From contig NZ_JAAFZU010000034.1 of assembly GCF_018263905.1 (NCBI RefSeq), positions 19,079 to 83,078 on the forward strand: DNA of 64,000 nt, written 5' to 3'. Position 1 is the stretch's first letter, and the number at the start of each line of letters is the position of its first letter. Below the pieces are notes generated by a model. The model was given only the letters and a program-made list of their open reading frames with translations. It was not told the origin of the DNA and ran no database searches. Shown here piece after piece: positions 58,307 to 62,098 of this stretch. The position numbers and the translations under genes are program-made. The stretch comes from Loktanella sp. SALINAS62 (GTDB lineage Bacteria; Pseudomonadota; Alphaproteobacteria; Rhodobacterales; Rhodobacteraceae).

Positions 58307-58911
58307 CTGCGACTGCGTGCCCACAGGCGGCGCGTGACGCGCCAGACGTAAAATCCCAGGATGCCCAGTAGCAAAATGTTCGTGACCGGGTTCAGAAATG
58401 CGGCGACGCGATCATAATTCGCGGACAGCAAATAGCCCGCCGCGATCAGCGCCGCGTTCCATAGGGCAGATCCCAGCGTGGTATAGATGAAAAACCGTGT
58501 CAGCCCCATGCCGGACAGGCCCGCAGGCACCGAAATCAGCGTGCGGACACCCGGCACCATGCGCCCGAAAAACACCGCCGCCTTATCGTGGCGGTCGAAC
58601 CATGCCACAGCCCTGCGAATATCCTCCACCTCAAGCGTCAGCCAGACGCCATGCCGGTCGATGAAATCCTCAATCCGGCGCTGGCCCAGCATCTGCCCCA
58701 CCAGATACCATAGATACGCGCCCAGAACCGCGCCGATCGTTCCCAAGATGAAGACCGCAATCAGCGACATCCGGCCCTGTGCGGCCTGAAATCCTGCCAG
58801 CGGCATGACCAGTTCGGATGGAATGGGCGGAAATACGTTTTCCAGCAACATGACCAGCCCAACGCCAAAGGCGCCCGCTGCGTCGATCAGTCGGGTAATG
58901 AAATCAAACAT
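58303..58911 (-). CDS. DedA-family membrane protein
   Basis: This 202-residue inner-membrane protein has the DedA pattern: ENVFPPIPSELVMPLAGF with its early acidic and proline residues, FFGRMVPGVRTLISVPAG with the conserved arginines, and about five membrane segments. DedA proteins recycle polyprenyl-phosphate or phospholipids across the membrane and support envelope integrity. The ATG at 58911 lies inside the last codons of the MATE gene, so translation is coupled; a TTG at 58920 is an alternative. Confidence 0.9.
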   Translation of the reverse strand: MFDFITRLIDAAGAFGVGLVMLLENVFPPIPSELVMPLAGFQAAQGRMSLIAVFILGTIGAVLGAYLWYLVGQMLGQRRIEDFIDRHGVWLTLEVEDIRRAVAWFDRHDKAAVFFGRMVPGVRTLISVPAGLSGMGLTRFFIYTTLGSALWNAALIAAGYLLSANYDRVAAFLNPVTNILLLGILGFYVWRVTRRLWARSRS

Positions 58912-60298
58912 GCTGCCCAACCTTTTCCCGACCCGGCAGTTCCATCAGGGGGCGCCGCTTTCGCCCGGCGATGAACCGCCAGCACAGGCAGACGGCAGCC
59001 ACAGCCAGCCCAACGACCAGCCCCAACCACAACCCTTGCGGTCCCCAACCCAACGTGAACGCCAGCAAATAGCTTAACGGGATCGCCACAACCCAATAGC
59101 TGAATGCCGCAATCACCATCGGCACGACCGTATCCTGTAATCCGCGCAACAACCCCAGGGCCACGACCTGCGCGGCATCGACGATCTGGAACAAGGCCGC
59201 CATCGCCAGCAACGTCGTCCCCAGCGTCAGGATCATCGGCAACGAAGGGGCCTGTGGATCGACGAAAAACGAAATCAGCGTCCGGGGGATCGCCAGAAAC
59301 GCCACGATCGTCAGACACACGAACGCACCCGACAGGACAAAGGACGCAATGGCGCCACGGCGCAACCCGGTCTCGTCCCGGCGGCCCACAGCACGCCCTG
59401 CCCGCACGGTGGCGGCTTGCGATATGGCGATATGCACCATGAATGTCAGGCTGGCTAGTTGCAGCGCGATCCCGTGGCTAGCCAGCGCAACCTCGCCGAT
59501 CCAGCCCATCATGATGGAACTGGCGGTGAACAAACCGCCCTCTGCCAGTGACGTGATCCCGATCGGCAATCCCAAACGAAACACCCGCGACATGATCTGC
59601 GGATCGGGGCGGAACGGGTTTCTCAGCAGTTCCTGCTCTGGCAGCTTTCGCAGAATATAGATCACCAGCACGATCAGCGTCCCGGCCTGCATCAGCACAG
59701 ATGCGATGGCCGCACCCCTGATCCCCATTTCCGGCGCACCGAAATTGCCAAAGATCAGCAGATAATTCACCCCGACGTTCAGGACGGCGGCGGCAACGGT
59801 GGACCAGAAAATGAATGCCGTCAGTTCCAGTGCGACCAAAAAGGATTTGAGCGTCATCACGATCAGCGCGGGGATCATGCCCAAAATCGCAATGACCAGA
59901 TAATCCGCCCCTGCCGCCGCGACTGCGGGCGTTTGTCCGATTGCCAGCAGGATCGGTTCGGCCACGAAAAACGGGATCGACACCACACCACCGTAAAAGA
60001 TCGACAGCCAGACCGCCATGCGGGTCACACGGCGGGCTGTGCGTGTATCGCCTTCTTCGGCGGCGGTGGCGACCAGCGGTGTGACGGCTTGCGCAAAACC
60101 GGCACCGACGATGAAGATGACAAACAACAGCGATGTCGCCAGTGTCGCTGCCGCCAGTGCCGTCACGTCATACCAGCCCAGCATCAGCGTGTCCGTGATA
60201 TGAATTGCGAATTGCGCAAGATTGCTTGCCATCAGGGGCGCGCCAAGACGCAGCAGCGCGCGGAAATGGCCGGTGTATGTCATGGTGGGCGTCATCAT
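58904..60298 (-). CDS. MATE-family efflux transporter (NorM-like)
   Basis: This 464-residue transporter has twelve predicted membrane segments in two similar halves. It shows LGAPLMASNLAQFAIHITDT at the first segment and GLPIGITSLAEGGLFTASSI at the start of the second half, typical of NorM-type cation/drug antiporters. Its stop overlaps the DedA start by 8 bases. The drug or metabolite exported is unknown. Confidence 0.9.
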   Translation of the reverse strand: MMTPTMTYTGHFRALLRLGAPLMASNLAQFAIHITDTLMLGWYDVTALAAATLATSLLFVIFIVGAGFAQAVTPLVATAAEEGDTRTARRVTRMAVWLSIFYGGVVSIPFFVAEPILLAIGQTPAVAAAGADYLVIAILGMIPALIVMTLKSFLVALELTAFIFWSTVAAAVLNVGVNYLLIFGNFGAPEMGIRGAAIASVLMQAGTLIVLVIYILRKLPEQELLRNPFRPDPQIMSRVFRLGLPIGITSLAEGGLFTASSIMMGWIGEVALASHGIALQLASLTFMVHIAISQAATVRAGRAVGRRDETGLRRGAIASFVLSGAFVCLTIVAFLAIPRTLISFFVDPQAPSLPMILTLGTTLLAMAALFQIVDAAQVVALGLLRGLQDTVVPMVIAAFSYWVVAIPLSYLLAFTLGWGPQGLWLGLVVGLAVAAVCLCWRFIAGRKRRPLMELPGREKVGQHV

Positions 60299-60343: not shown

Positions 60344-61144
60344 TCATCCCCGGTTCGGAAACACCTGCTGCAGTTCGGCGTCGAACTGTGCCCATGAAAT
60401 GGAAGACTTGTTTCCGGCATAGCCGTGGTAGTGCGATTTCCCCGTCGAATTTGGCAAACCAGCCCAGATCCGGGCCAGATTGTTCATGAAACGGTGGCGC
60501 CCCATGTCACCGGCACGCACATCGTCCAGACCCGCCTCTGCCAGCAGGACATCGGCCAGCCGGTCCTGCAGGGCGGGGGAAAACAGGTCCCGTTCAGACG
60601 TCCCTGTGACGCGCACAAGACGGCGCAGGGTGGACGGGATGAATTGATAGCGTCCGATGGCGTGGTTTTGCCGCGGTGTGGCGTCGATCCACGCAAAGAT
60701 ATCCCCGACGGTCATCTGTGTGGGGCGGGCCGGTGGCATCACGCGCGCGCCGTAAACTACGGCGTCATAACCATCGCGCCGGGATTCCGCATACCCGATG
60801 ACCTGCCGCAGGACCTGCACATCGCGCGCGCCTGCCTGCCCCCGCAGCATGATCCGTTGGTCCGGTACGATCAGCGGGCTGACGGCGGCAACCCTGCGTC
60901 GATCGTTTTCTGCCGGTCGCGGTGCGGCGGGTGCAAACAGGCTATTGCCCGCCTGCCCCGCAAACAGACTGGGCGTACGTGTCAGTGCAGCCGGTCGCGG
61001 GGTGGGTTCGCGCGATACGATCAGCGGCCCGCGTTTTTGCAAGAAAGCGGCAGGCTGCGTGTCAGCCTTTGGTTGTTCGGGCCATAGGATCACAAGGGTG
61101 ACAGTTGCGGACAGCACCGCTGCGAATAGGTGTTTCAAGATCAT
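60344..61144 (-). CDS. Exported lambda-R-like (GH104) lytic transglycosylase homologue
   Basis: This 266-residue protein has an N-terminal membrane anchor or signal (2-21), a proline-rich linker (about 25-100), and a C-terminal domain resembling phage lambda endolysin R. The matches are VIGYAESRRDGYDAVVYGAR with likely catalytic Glu120, AIGRYQF at 162-168, and LARIWAGLP at 223-231. Lambda R cleaves peptidoglycan as a lytic transglycosylase. Here the enzyme should act in the periplasm under its own signal, with no holin or phage genes nearby. Catalysis is inferred from motif similarity. The leader has a hairpin over the ribosome binding site. Confidence 0.75.
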   Translation of the reverse strand: MILKHLFAAVLSATVTLVILWPEQPKADTQPAAFLQKRGPLIVSREPTPRPAALTRTPSLFAGQAGNSLFAPAAPRPAENDRRRVAAVSPLIVPDQRIMLRGQAGARDVQVLRQVIGYAESRRDGYDAVVYGARVMPPARPTQMTVGDIFAWIDATPRQNHAIGRYQFIPSTLRRLVRVTGTSERDLFSPALQDRLADVLLAEAGLDDVRAGDMGRHRFMNNLARIWAGLPNSTGKSHYHGYAGNKSSISWAQFDAELQQVFPNRG

Positions 61145-61148
61145 TGGC

Positions 61149-61176
61149 CCGCCTGTCTTGGTAAAGGAACAGGCGG
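61149..61176 (-). promoter_or_regulatory. Leader hairpin covering the transglycosylase ribosome binding site
   Basis: Read leftward, CCGCCTGT and ACAGGCGG form a perfect 8-bp stem with a 12-base loop. The right arm contains the purine-rich GGCGG that sits 4-8 bases before the ATG at 61144. The hairpin could limit translation, or serve as a terminator of the upstream epimerase gene, though no T-run follows. Confidence 0.5.
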
Positions 61177-61213
61177 ACCATGTGATGCAGAAGTTTAGAT
61201 TTCGTGTCCCCGC

Positions 61214-62098
61214 TTAGCCCTTGAGCACATCGCGCCAACTGTGTTTCGGCGCAAAGCCAACCATCTTTTTGGCCTTGTTGTTGGCATAGAACGTCTCATT
61301 CTGGCCCATATCTCGGGTCTTTGGCACGCCTTGATAGAAGCGTTCCATGACCTCATCGGTGCTCAGGTTCACGCTCATGTCGTCGTTGGATACGTTGAAC
61401 ACCTCGTACCCCAGACCATCGGTGTTCAGACAACATTCGACCATCTGCGCCAGATCGCGCGCGTCGATGTAGGCAAAGATATTGCGCCGCCGCAGGGCCG
61501 GATCATCCATGAAAGCGGGGAACATCTGTTCGTATTCGTGCGGCTCGATCACATTGTTGATCCGCAGGCCATAGATATCAGCCCCCGTGCGGGCCTGAAA
61601 CGACCGCGCCGTCACCTCGTTCACGACCTTGGACATGGCATAGCTGTCCTGCGGCACCGTCGGGTGTTCTTCGTCGATGGGCACATAATCGGGCTTTATC
61701 TCGCCGTCCCAGAAACAGATGCCATAGGTGGTTTCGGACGAGGCAAAGATGACCTTGGGGATGCCCAGTTTCGCCGCCGCGTTCAGCACGTTGTAAGTGG
61801 ACATCGTGTTGTTGCGATAGGTTTCGCCGTCCGGCACCAGCATGATCCGTGGCACGGCGGCAAAATGCACCACAGCATCATAGCGGGGCACACCGGTGCC
61901 GGGGTCCAGCTCGTCAAAATCGGCGTAGTTGTGCATCGCGTCGATCACTTGCCCCGCGTCGGTCAGATCGACCCGCAGCGCGCGATCATCCGCATCGGCG
62001 GCACTGTCGATATTCGTGACCTGATGGCCCGCATCCCGAAGATGCTGCACCGCATAGCGCCCGGCCTTGCCGCTGCCGCCTGTAAAGAAAATACGCAT
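61214..62098 (-). CDS. NAD(P)-dependent epimerase/dehydratase family protein
   Basis: This 294-residue extended SDR has the dinucleotide motif TGGSGKAGR (6-14) and the catalytic YxxxK as YAMSK at about 173-177. The Ser/Thr partner is in FASSETTYG. INNVIEPHEY and FAYIDARDLAQMV are substrate-side blocks. Members act on nucleotide sugars or uronates; the substrate is not clear. It lies 21 bases after the 2-hydroxyacid dehydrogenase gene on the same strand. Confidence 0.85.
   Translation of the reverse strand: MRIFFTGGSGKAGRYAVQHLRDAGHQVTNIDSAADADDRALRVDLTDAGQVIDAMHNYADFDELDPGTGVPRYDAVVHFAAVPRIMLVPDGETYRNNTMSTYNVLNAAAKLGIPKVIFASSETTYGICFWDGEIKPDYVPIDEEHPTVPQDSYAMSKVVNEVTARSFQARTGADIYGLRINNVIEPHEYEQMFPAFMDDPALRRRNIFAYIDARDLAQMVECCLNTDGLGYEVFNVSNDDMSVNLSTDEVMERFYQGVPKTRDMGQNETFYANNKAKKMVGFAPKHSWRDVLKG

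Follow-up and report, generated by a model that had tools for sequence, protein, structure and literature searches.

How does a domain of the phage lambda endolysin R type come to be encoded on a bacterial chromosome behind a segment of the export type, and what would it do there? The locus that raises this question lies in the window, by which we mean the whole 64,000-nucleotide stretch of Loktanella sp. SALINAS62 DNA that was analyzed. The open reading frame concerned begins with an ATG codon and encodes 266 amino acids.

60344..61144, minus strand: coding sequence of a predicted exported-type GH104 (lambda-R-like) lysozyme or lytic transglycosylase (assigned from the ORF, fold match, phrog_90 and family distribution)

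We consider it probable that the product of this gene is a lytic transglycosylase of the cell envelope, of the lambda-R / GH104 type and under host regulation, which would act on the cell's own peptidoglycan. Its immediate flanks are an NAD-dependent epimerase gene (61214-62098) and a MATE transporter gene (58904-60298), beyond which a VTT/DedA protein is encoded; all four genes share one strand (identities from Pfam, with which the three neighbors were scanned). None of nine neighboring proteins matched a PHROG of the lysis category (cut-off E 0.001): two had no match, and the rest fell under unknown function, transcription regulation or nucleotide-sugar epimerase. Neither the Pfam scan of three neighbors nor the PHROG scan of nine placed a holin or spanin gene beside the window gene. 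An earlier note, made from the sequence alone, had stated that no holin, spanin or phage gene lies near, and the epimerase, MATE and VTT neighbors, together with the PHROG result, bear this out as regards lysis genes.

Fold, family and catalytic residue

60347..60835, minus strand: catalytic GH104-type domain, residues 104-266, with Glu120 at the position of lambda R Glu19 (models and alignments)

From residue 103-104 to the C-terminus, the protein was modeled as a confident, mainly helical domain, with pLDDT mostly >90. Structural comparison with lambda R, which the earlier note had proposed as a check, yielded a GH104-type fold. Using the model built on a 15-row alignment, the best Foldseek match in the PDB was lambda lysozyme (1am7, E 4.9e-4). 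With VIA-align, lambda lysozyme 3d3d was aligned at Z 12.2 over 134 residues (3.0 Å) with this model, and at Z 11.2 over 137 residues (3.5 Å) with a model built on 62 rows, while the baseplate structure 8kea of cyanophage A-1(L) scored Z 12.9 and 12.3, respectively. After three phage structures, the rows from rank 4 onward began at Z 7.2 (15-row model) and 6.8 (62-row model), and the lambda-lysozyme matches of both models stood well above these values.

At the sequence level, identity to lambda R was 19-22%. Both proteins nevertheless belong to one sequence family, as they matched the same stretch of phrog_90 (“endolysin”): the window protein at E 2.7e-17 (profile 650-791) and lambda R at E 3.9e-62 (profile 651-811). 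The window protein had no match in Pfam or NCBIfam, which says little, because lambda R itself has no match there either. The lambda R pattern reported in the earlier note was located in the C-terminal domain, namely Glu120, AIGRYQF (162-168) and RIWAGLP (225-231). Glu120 was invariant in all 15 aligned relatives. In the wider domain alignment, the same column also contains lambda R Glu19; of 79 bacterial rows, 75 have Glu there, one has Asp and three have a gap, whereas 16 of 17 phage rows have Glu. The window protein thus carries a glutamate at the position of the catalytic residue of lambda R.

Several known proteins can be set beside it. Lambda endolysin R (GH104; PDB 1AM7, 3D3D) shares the fold, the catalytic glutamate, the GYD, GRYQ and IWA-LP motifs and phrog_90. 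Unlike the window protein, which is of the exported type, chromosomal and equipped with a conserved linker motif, lambda R has neither N-terminal segment nor linker and is encoded in the S-R-Rz cassette. The tail/baseplate lysozymes are alike in domain type, and such a domain of Agrobacterium phage Atu_ph07 was the best viral fold match (E 3.2e-10), but both this domain and that of 8KEA belong to large virion proteins. Rhizobium phage Paso encodes a protein annotated as a SAR endolysin transglycosylase (QOE32135.1; Foldseek E 6.7e-9), with a GH104-type domain and an annotated N-terminal membrane segment; in contrast to the window protein, it is phage-encoded and branches outside the bacterial clade described below. 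A plasmid protein of Pukyongiella litopenaei, annotated as “glycoside hydrolase family 104 protein”, is 51% identical over query residues 112-262, but belongs to a plasmid lineage and is known by annotation only.

Bacterial GH104 genes are already known as genome annotations. GH104 is counted among the peptidoglycan-lysis families in a survey (PMC3541169), and a Yangia genome paper lists one GH104 gene, given as hypothetical (PMC5259889). Among the titles listed in a limited literature search, by which absence is unproven, none concerned the function of a Rhodobacterales GH104 gene. What appears to be new is the lineage-specific exported-type GH104 form, its linker motif and its putative gene-specific element.

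N-terminal segment and linker

61064..61144, minus strand: N-terminal export-type segment, residues 1-27 (hydrophobic helix at residues 2-19 in the model; hydrophobic N-termini of relatives)
60836..61063, minus strand: disordered linker, residues 28-103 (pLDDT; 11 prolines in 76 residues)
60914..60970, minus strand: conserved linker motif SLFAGQAGNSLFAPAAPRP, residues 59-77 (shuffled-linker test; 15-row alignment)

The domain is preceded by the arrangement described in the earlier note, a signal or anchor segment followed by a proline-rich linker. A helix at residues 2-19 was present in both structure models. The N-termini of relatives are also hydrophobic, although the rule by which start codons were chosen for the 77 loci favors such starts; two loci (L109 and L118) received a non-start codon by fallback and are still counted. 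The segment may be either a cleaved signal or a signal anchor. An AxA-like cleavage pattern was observed in 72 of 76 loci, and is uninformative on cleavage because shuffled residues gave nearly the same figure (69.9 of 76). The window's own candidate site, P-K-A at residues 25-27, is a poor one. With respect to a SAR-type arrangement, in which a weakly hydrophobic N-terminal signal-anchor-release segment stays uncleaved, the helix at 2-19 was observed, and the AxA-like pattern does not discriminate.

In the first model, pLDDT was <50 across most of residues 25-101, and in the model from the deeper alignment it rose to about 58-78 per 10-residue block of the linker. Within this otherwise variable region, the linkers of the family carry a conserved motif of the form SLFxGxxGxSLFAPxPxR, which the earlier note did not mention. 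A bipartite pattern of the SLF...[LF]F-A-P type occurred in 42 of 63 linkers, compared with 0.17 expected after shuffling, and S59, F61 and P72 were invariant in all 15 aligned relatives. The linker counts use 63 of the 76 loci; the other 13 did not fit the pattern applied, 11 of them having a Glu with a variant motif, one an Asp (L112) and one nothing visible (L127). The conserved linker motif mostly lies 32 to 67 residues before the catalytic glutamate, often near 45, and 61 residues before it in the window protein. Docking and autoinhibition are guesses at the role of the SLF...SLFAP motif.

Distribution and phylogeny

The gene was detected in all nine genomes of the window's genus, in 17 of 61 relatives, and in 76 of 295 genomes sampled from its bacterial family (75 of 294 genera). 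The family matches consist of 66 strong and 10 weak ones (<100 bits, fragments included). The remaining 219 genomes had no match, and the lineage can therefore do without the gene. A class-wide sample of 337 genomes, which includes at least 5 genomes of that family, produced three matches at E 1e-10, every one in the same family as the window.

Two locations were apparent within the genus. The order epimerase - gene - MATE - VTT is common to four genomes (G000, G002, G004 and G005), and in the other five (G001, G003, G006, G007 and G008) the gene stands next to one of the malic enzyme/PTA kind, as identified by Pfam for G006. The two locations occupy separate parts of the domain tree.

The earlier note had suggested a phylogeny as a means of recognizing a stable family in Rhodobacterales. 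In a tree of 96 domains, 76 bacterial rows formed one clade with none of the 17 phage rows inside, at a support of 99/98 from a bootstrap that had not settled, and with a very long lambda R branch. L028, being almost identical to L027, was not included in the tree, and three divergent copies from genome G036 fell outside the main bacterial clade. Among 50,697 phage records, 176 matched the window protein; every match was below 60% identical and extended over less than 80% of the query. The phage relatives include tail/baseplate lysozymes as well as the protein annotated as a SAR endolysin. The conserved gene order within the genus, the single bacterial clade apart from the phage rows and the distance of the phage relatives support the view that this is a stable chromosomal host gene in its bacterial family. 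The suggestion of a domesticated endolysin in the earlier note is therefore upheld as regards the stable chromosomal family. Its other half, descent from a phage endolysin, is no more than plausible: the clade is separate from the 17 sampled phage rows, the lambda branch is very long and the phage relatives comprise both tail/baseplate lysozymes and endolysins.

A conserved DNA element upstream of the gene

61192..61207, minus strand: conserved upstream element ACACGAAATCTAAACT, consensus about AAACGAAATNTCAAC, with CA 10 nt on (held-out matrix test; core lying 61 nt before the ATG)

The follow-up analysis revealed a feature absent from the earlier note. In many family members, a sequence of about AACGAAATNTCAAC lies roughly 57 to 68 nt upstream of the start, with CA 10 nt later. 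A weight matrix was built from seven loci of the window's genus and applied, at a threshold of 12 bits, to 66 loci outside it. In total, 19 of the 66 reached the threshold, whereas random pieces of these loci would lead one to expect 0.11. A stricter control, the regions upstream of other predicted ORFs in the same loci, gave 3 of 700, which corresponds to 0.28 expected. Most of the matches (16 of 19) were positioned between -55 and -70. The element is widespread and not universal, since the other 47 loci remained below 12 bits.

Further targets of the element were sought in three ways. A strict pattern gave five matches in the nine genus genomes, all five upstream of the GH104 gene (reversed control, 1). 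A loose pattern gave 21 matches, 7 at the GH104 gene and 14 elsewhere; the latter showed no excess over the reversed control (19). A sequence-only model was trained on 24 sites upstream of GH104 genes, and it is thus a test of uniqueness rather than of discovery, which a loosely conserved regulon could escape. When this model was run over the 295 family genomes with strict filters, 15 of the best 20 matches listed lay at the GH104 gene, as established by inspecting their positions by hand. The other five were in genomes with no GH104 match, at per-genome E values of 0.008-0.03, which is about chance level for 295 genomes; at E 5, some match was found in 146 of the 295. No second conserved target of the element was found by the strict and loose patterns in nine genomes or among the best 20 matches of the model across 295. 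The simplest reading of the sequence data is that the element is a putative gene-specific regulator site.

In the information profile, the 20 nt preceding the element showed no block of conservation. An RNA-structure reading of the element was dropped: the leader alignment yielded no consensus structure, and Rfam gave no match up to E 1 over window positions 60900-61500. Of the 25 element-bearing loci, alignment A2 of the leaders omits L078 and L115, and alignment A4 omits L115. The sites of CtrA, FnrL, EcfG, RpoH and sigma-54 did not fit the element by eye. A CenR regulon was also rejected. The CenR site is described as a TGA-N8-TGA direct repeat (PMC9275681), and this repeat is absent within 150 nt upstream of the window gene and present, on either strand and at scattered positions, in 6 of the 25 element leaders. 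Passages from another paper on CenR (PMC9561847) and from one on GafA (PMC9638019) likewise offered no motif that could be matched to the element. In the window, no GTTC-N7-GTTC stands upstream of the gene, and SOS control was discarded there. Boxes of this LexA type were seen 121-123 nt upstream of the start at three loci (L030, L033 and L034, from genus genomes G006, G001 and G007), and SOS control is possible in that sub-lineage.

A hairpin at the start codon

61145..61180, minus strand: hairpin with a 13-bp stem and 10-nt loop, abutting the ATG, with the only SD-like purines in its 3' arm (stem search and leader fold)

The leader hairpin placed by the earlier note at 61149-61176 is real and slightly longer, extending from 61145 to 61180 and reaching the ATG. 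Folding of the 115-nt leader gave a z of -2.49, equaled in 4 of 200 shuffles, and a stem as strong occurred at 0.03% of 3080 random positions. Accessibility of the start region in the window was 0.32, whereas the median of the 76 loci was 0.42; with rank 10 among them, the window value is low and not extreme, and start accessibility was unremarkable across most of the family. Since a start-adjacent stem that strong is present in only 3 of 76 loci, those of three close genomes (the window, G004 and G005), the hairpin does not belong to the basic layout of the family; the next best score among the 76 was 21.0, versus 31.5 and 28.5. In the window and its two close relatives, the hairpin may lower translation.

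G004 and G005 keep the hairpin with one compensatory difference, T-A versus C-G. All 11 counted pairs were kept in the three genomes with one two-sided change, a result reached by 156 of 500 shuffles, and covariation among three sequences is a weak sign of selection. The G002 leader, which folds into a different, imperfect hairpin, received a score of zero when stems were searched for strictly. The hairpin was rejected as a genomic repeat: its own genome contains a single match besides the site itself, at up to two mismatches.

Another ATG lies at the foot of the hairpin (61179-61181). In G004 and G005 (L027 and L028) it is in frame and would add a 12-residue extension, MVRPILNYSGRA. In the window it is 37 nt off and out of frame, and would open a short overlapping ORF.

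Proposed function and alternative explanations

From the computed architecture, fold, catalytic-residue alignment, distribution, phylogeny, element and hairpin, we infer how the enzyme may work. The N-terminal segment would send the protein to export, after which it would reside in the periplasm, either released or tethered at the inner membrane. The SLF...SLFAP motif of the flexible linker may dock the enzyme onto a partner or onto the sacculus, and the C-terminal domain would cleave the MurNAc-GlcNAc bond, with Glu120 as acid/base. The mechanism of lambda lysozyme ends in 1,6-anhydroMurNAc, and the window protein would presumably leave the same ending. The level of the enzyme would be set by the upstream element, a conserved candidate control element that accompanies the gene in many lineages, and locally also by the start hairpin. 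Because the gene is stably kept on the chromosome, the enzyme may serve growth, division or the repair of the envelope.

If this is true, a phage-type muralytic domain would have become a cell-wall enzyme of the host, equipped with a control element of its own. The locus would then provide a tractable case of how lytic activity is tamed: by export, by a docking or inhibitory linker motif, by gene-specific regulation and, in some lineages, by a hairpin at the start. It is unusual for an element to recur across genera at a near-fixed distance while searches yield no second conserved target, and the binder of this one could be fished for directly. A bolder version, which we offer as a tentative and rather doubtful extension, is that a dedicated regulator, protein or RNA, recognizes the element and has this lysozyme as its sole conserved target in the family, so that a one-gene circuit would move between loci, and that the linker motif docks to a specific envelope partner.

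An exported endolysin-type domain might also be turned against its own cell. According to such an explanation, which we find unlikely, a recruited endolysin would lyse a subpopulation on a special signal, as in the release of gene transfer agents (GTA), under restraint by the hairpin and the element. The coupling of an endolysin-type domain to an N-terminal membrane segment, as annotated for the phage Paso protein, is in its favor, as are the strong start hairpin in three genomes and the occurrence of the LexA-type boxes within 300 nt upstream at 3 of 77 loci, where 0.68 would be expected. However, the other 74 loci have no such box within that distance and none is near the start of the window gene, no lysis-category neighbor was found among nine, the location is stable within the genus, and a Dinoroseobacter study names another endolysin/holin pair for GTA release (PMC6473078).

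The enzyme might instead clear peptidoglycan for a trans-envelope machine, such as a flagellum, pilus or conjugation apparatus, to which it would be dedicated. Plasmid homologues, many of them from Rhodobacterales, are 44-60% identical over the catalytic domain (best 20 of 39), 16 of the 39 matching plasmids are predicted to be conjugative, and the conserved linker motif suggests docking. As weak counter-evidence, no shared machine genes were recognized beside the chromosomal copies in 45 of 50 neighbor clusters, most of them unnamed by the search; we judge a dedicated role of this kind quite unlikely. The proposal that the gene is no host gene, but the remnant of a recent prophage insertion, is most improbable. 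It draws on the frequency of this domain type in phages, as the 176 matching records indicate, and both the gene order and the tree already contradict it: four genus genomes share one gene order and the other five another, the 76 bacterial rows form their clade without the 17 phage rows, and no lysis-category PHROG occurs among the nine neighbors. The envelope lytic transglycosylase under host control remains the preferred reading.

Gene settings and additional copies across the family

The neighbors of the gene vary across lineages and point to no particular pathway. At 17 of the 77 loci, the gene is near that of a putative 2OG-Fe(II) oxygenase (PF13759, by Pfam on one member). In other genera (L036, L038 and others), it stands amid what we take to be ribosomal protein genes, in clusters of up to 16 of the 77 loci. 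Ribosomal-protein-like and 2OG-Fe(II) oxygenase surroundings are an odd setting for an envelope enzyme.

Additional copies were observed in two genomes. The three divergent copies of G036 (L042 and L043) are located within a single 109-kb contig (C68). In G003, another GH104 copy, unlike the first, lies on contig C62 (L039), adjoining genes that we presume, from their appearance, to encode ATP synthase subunits.
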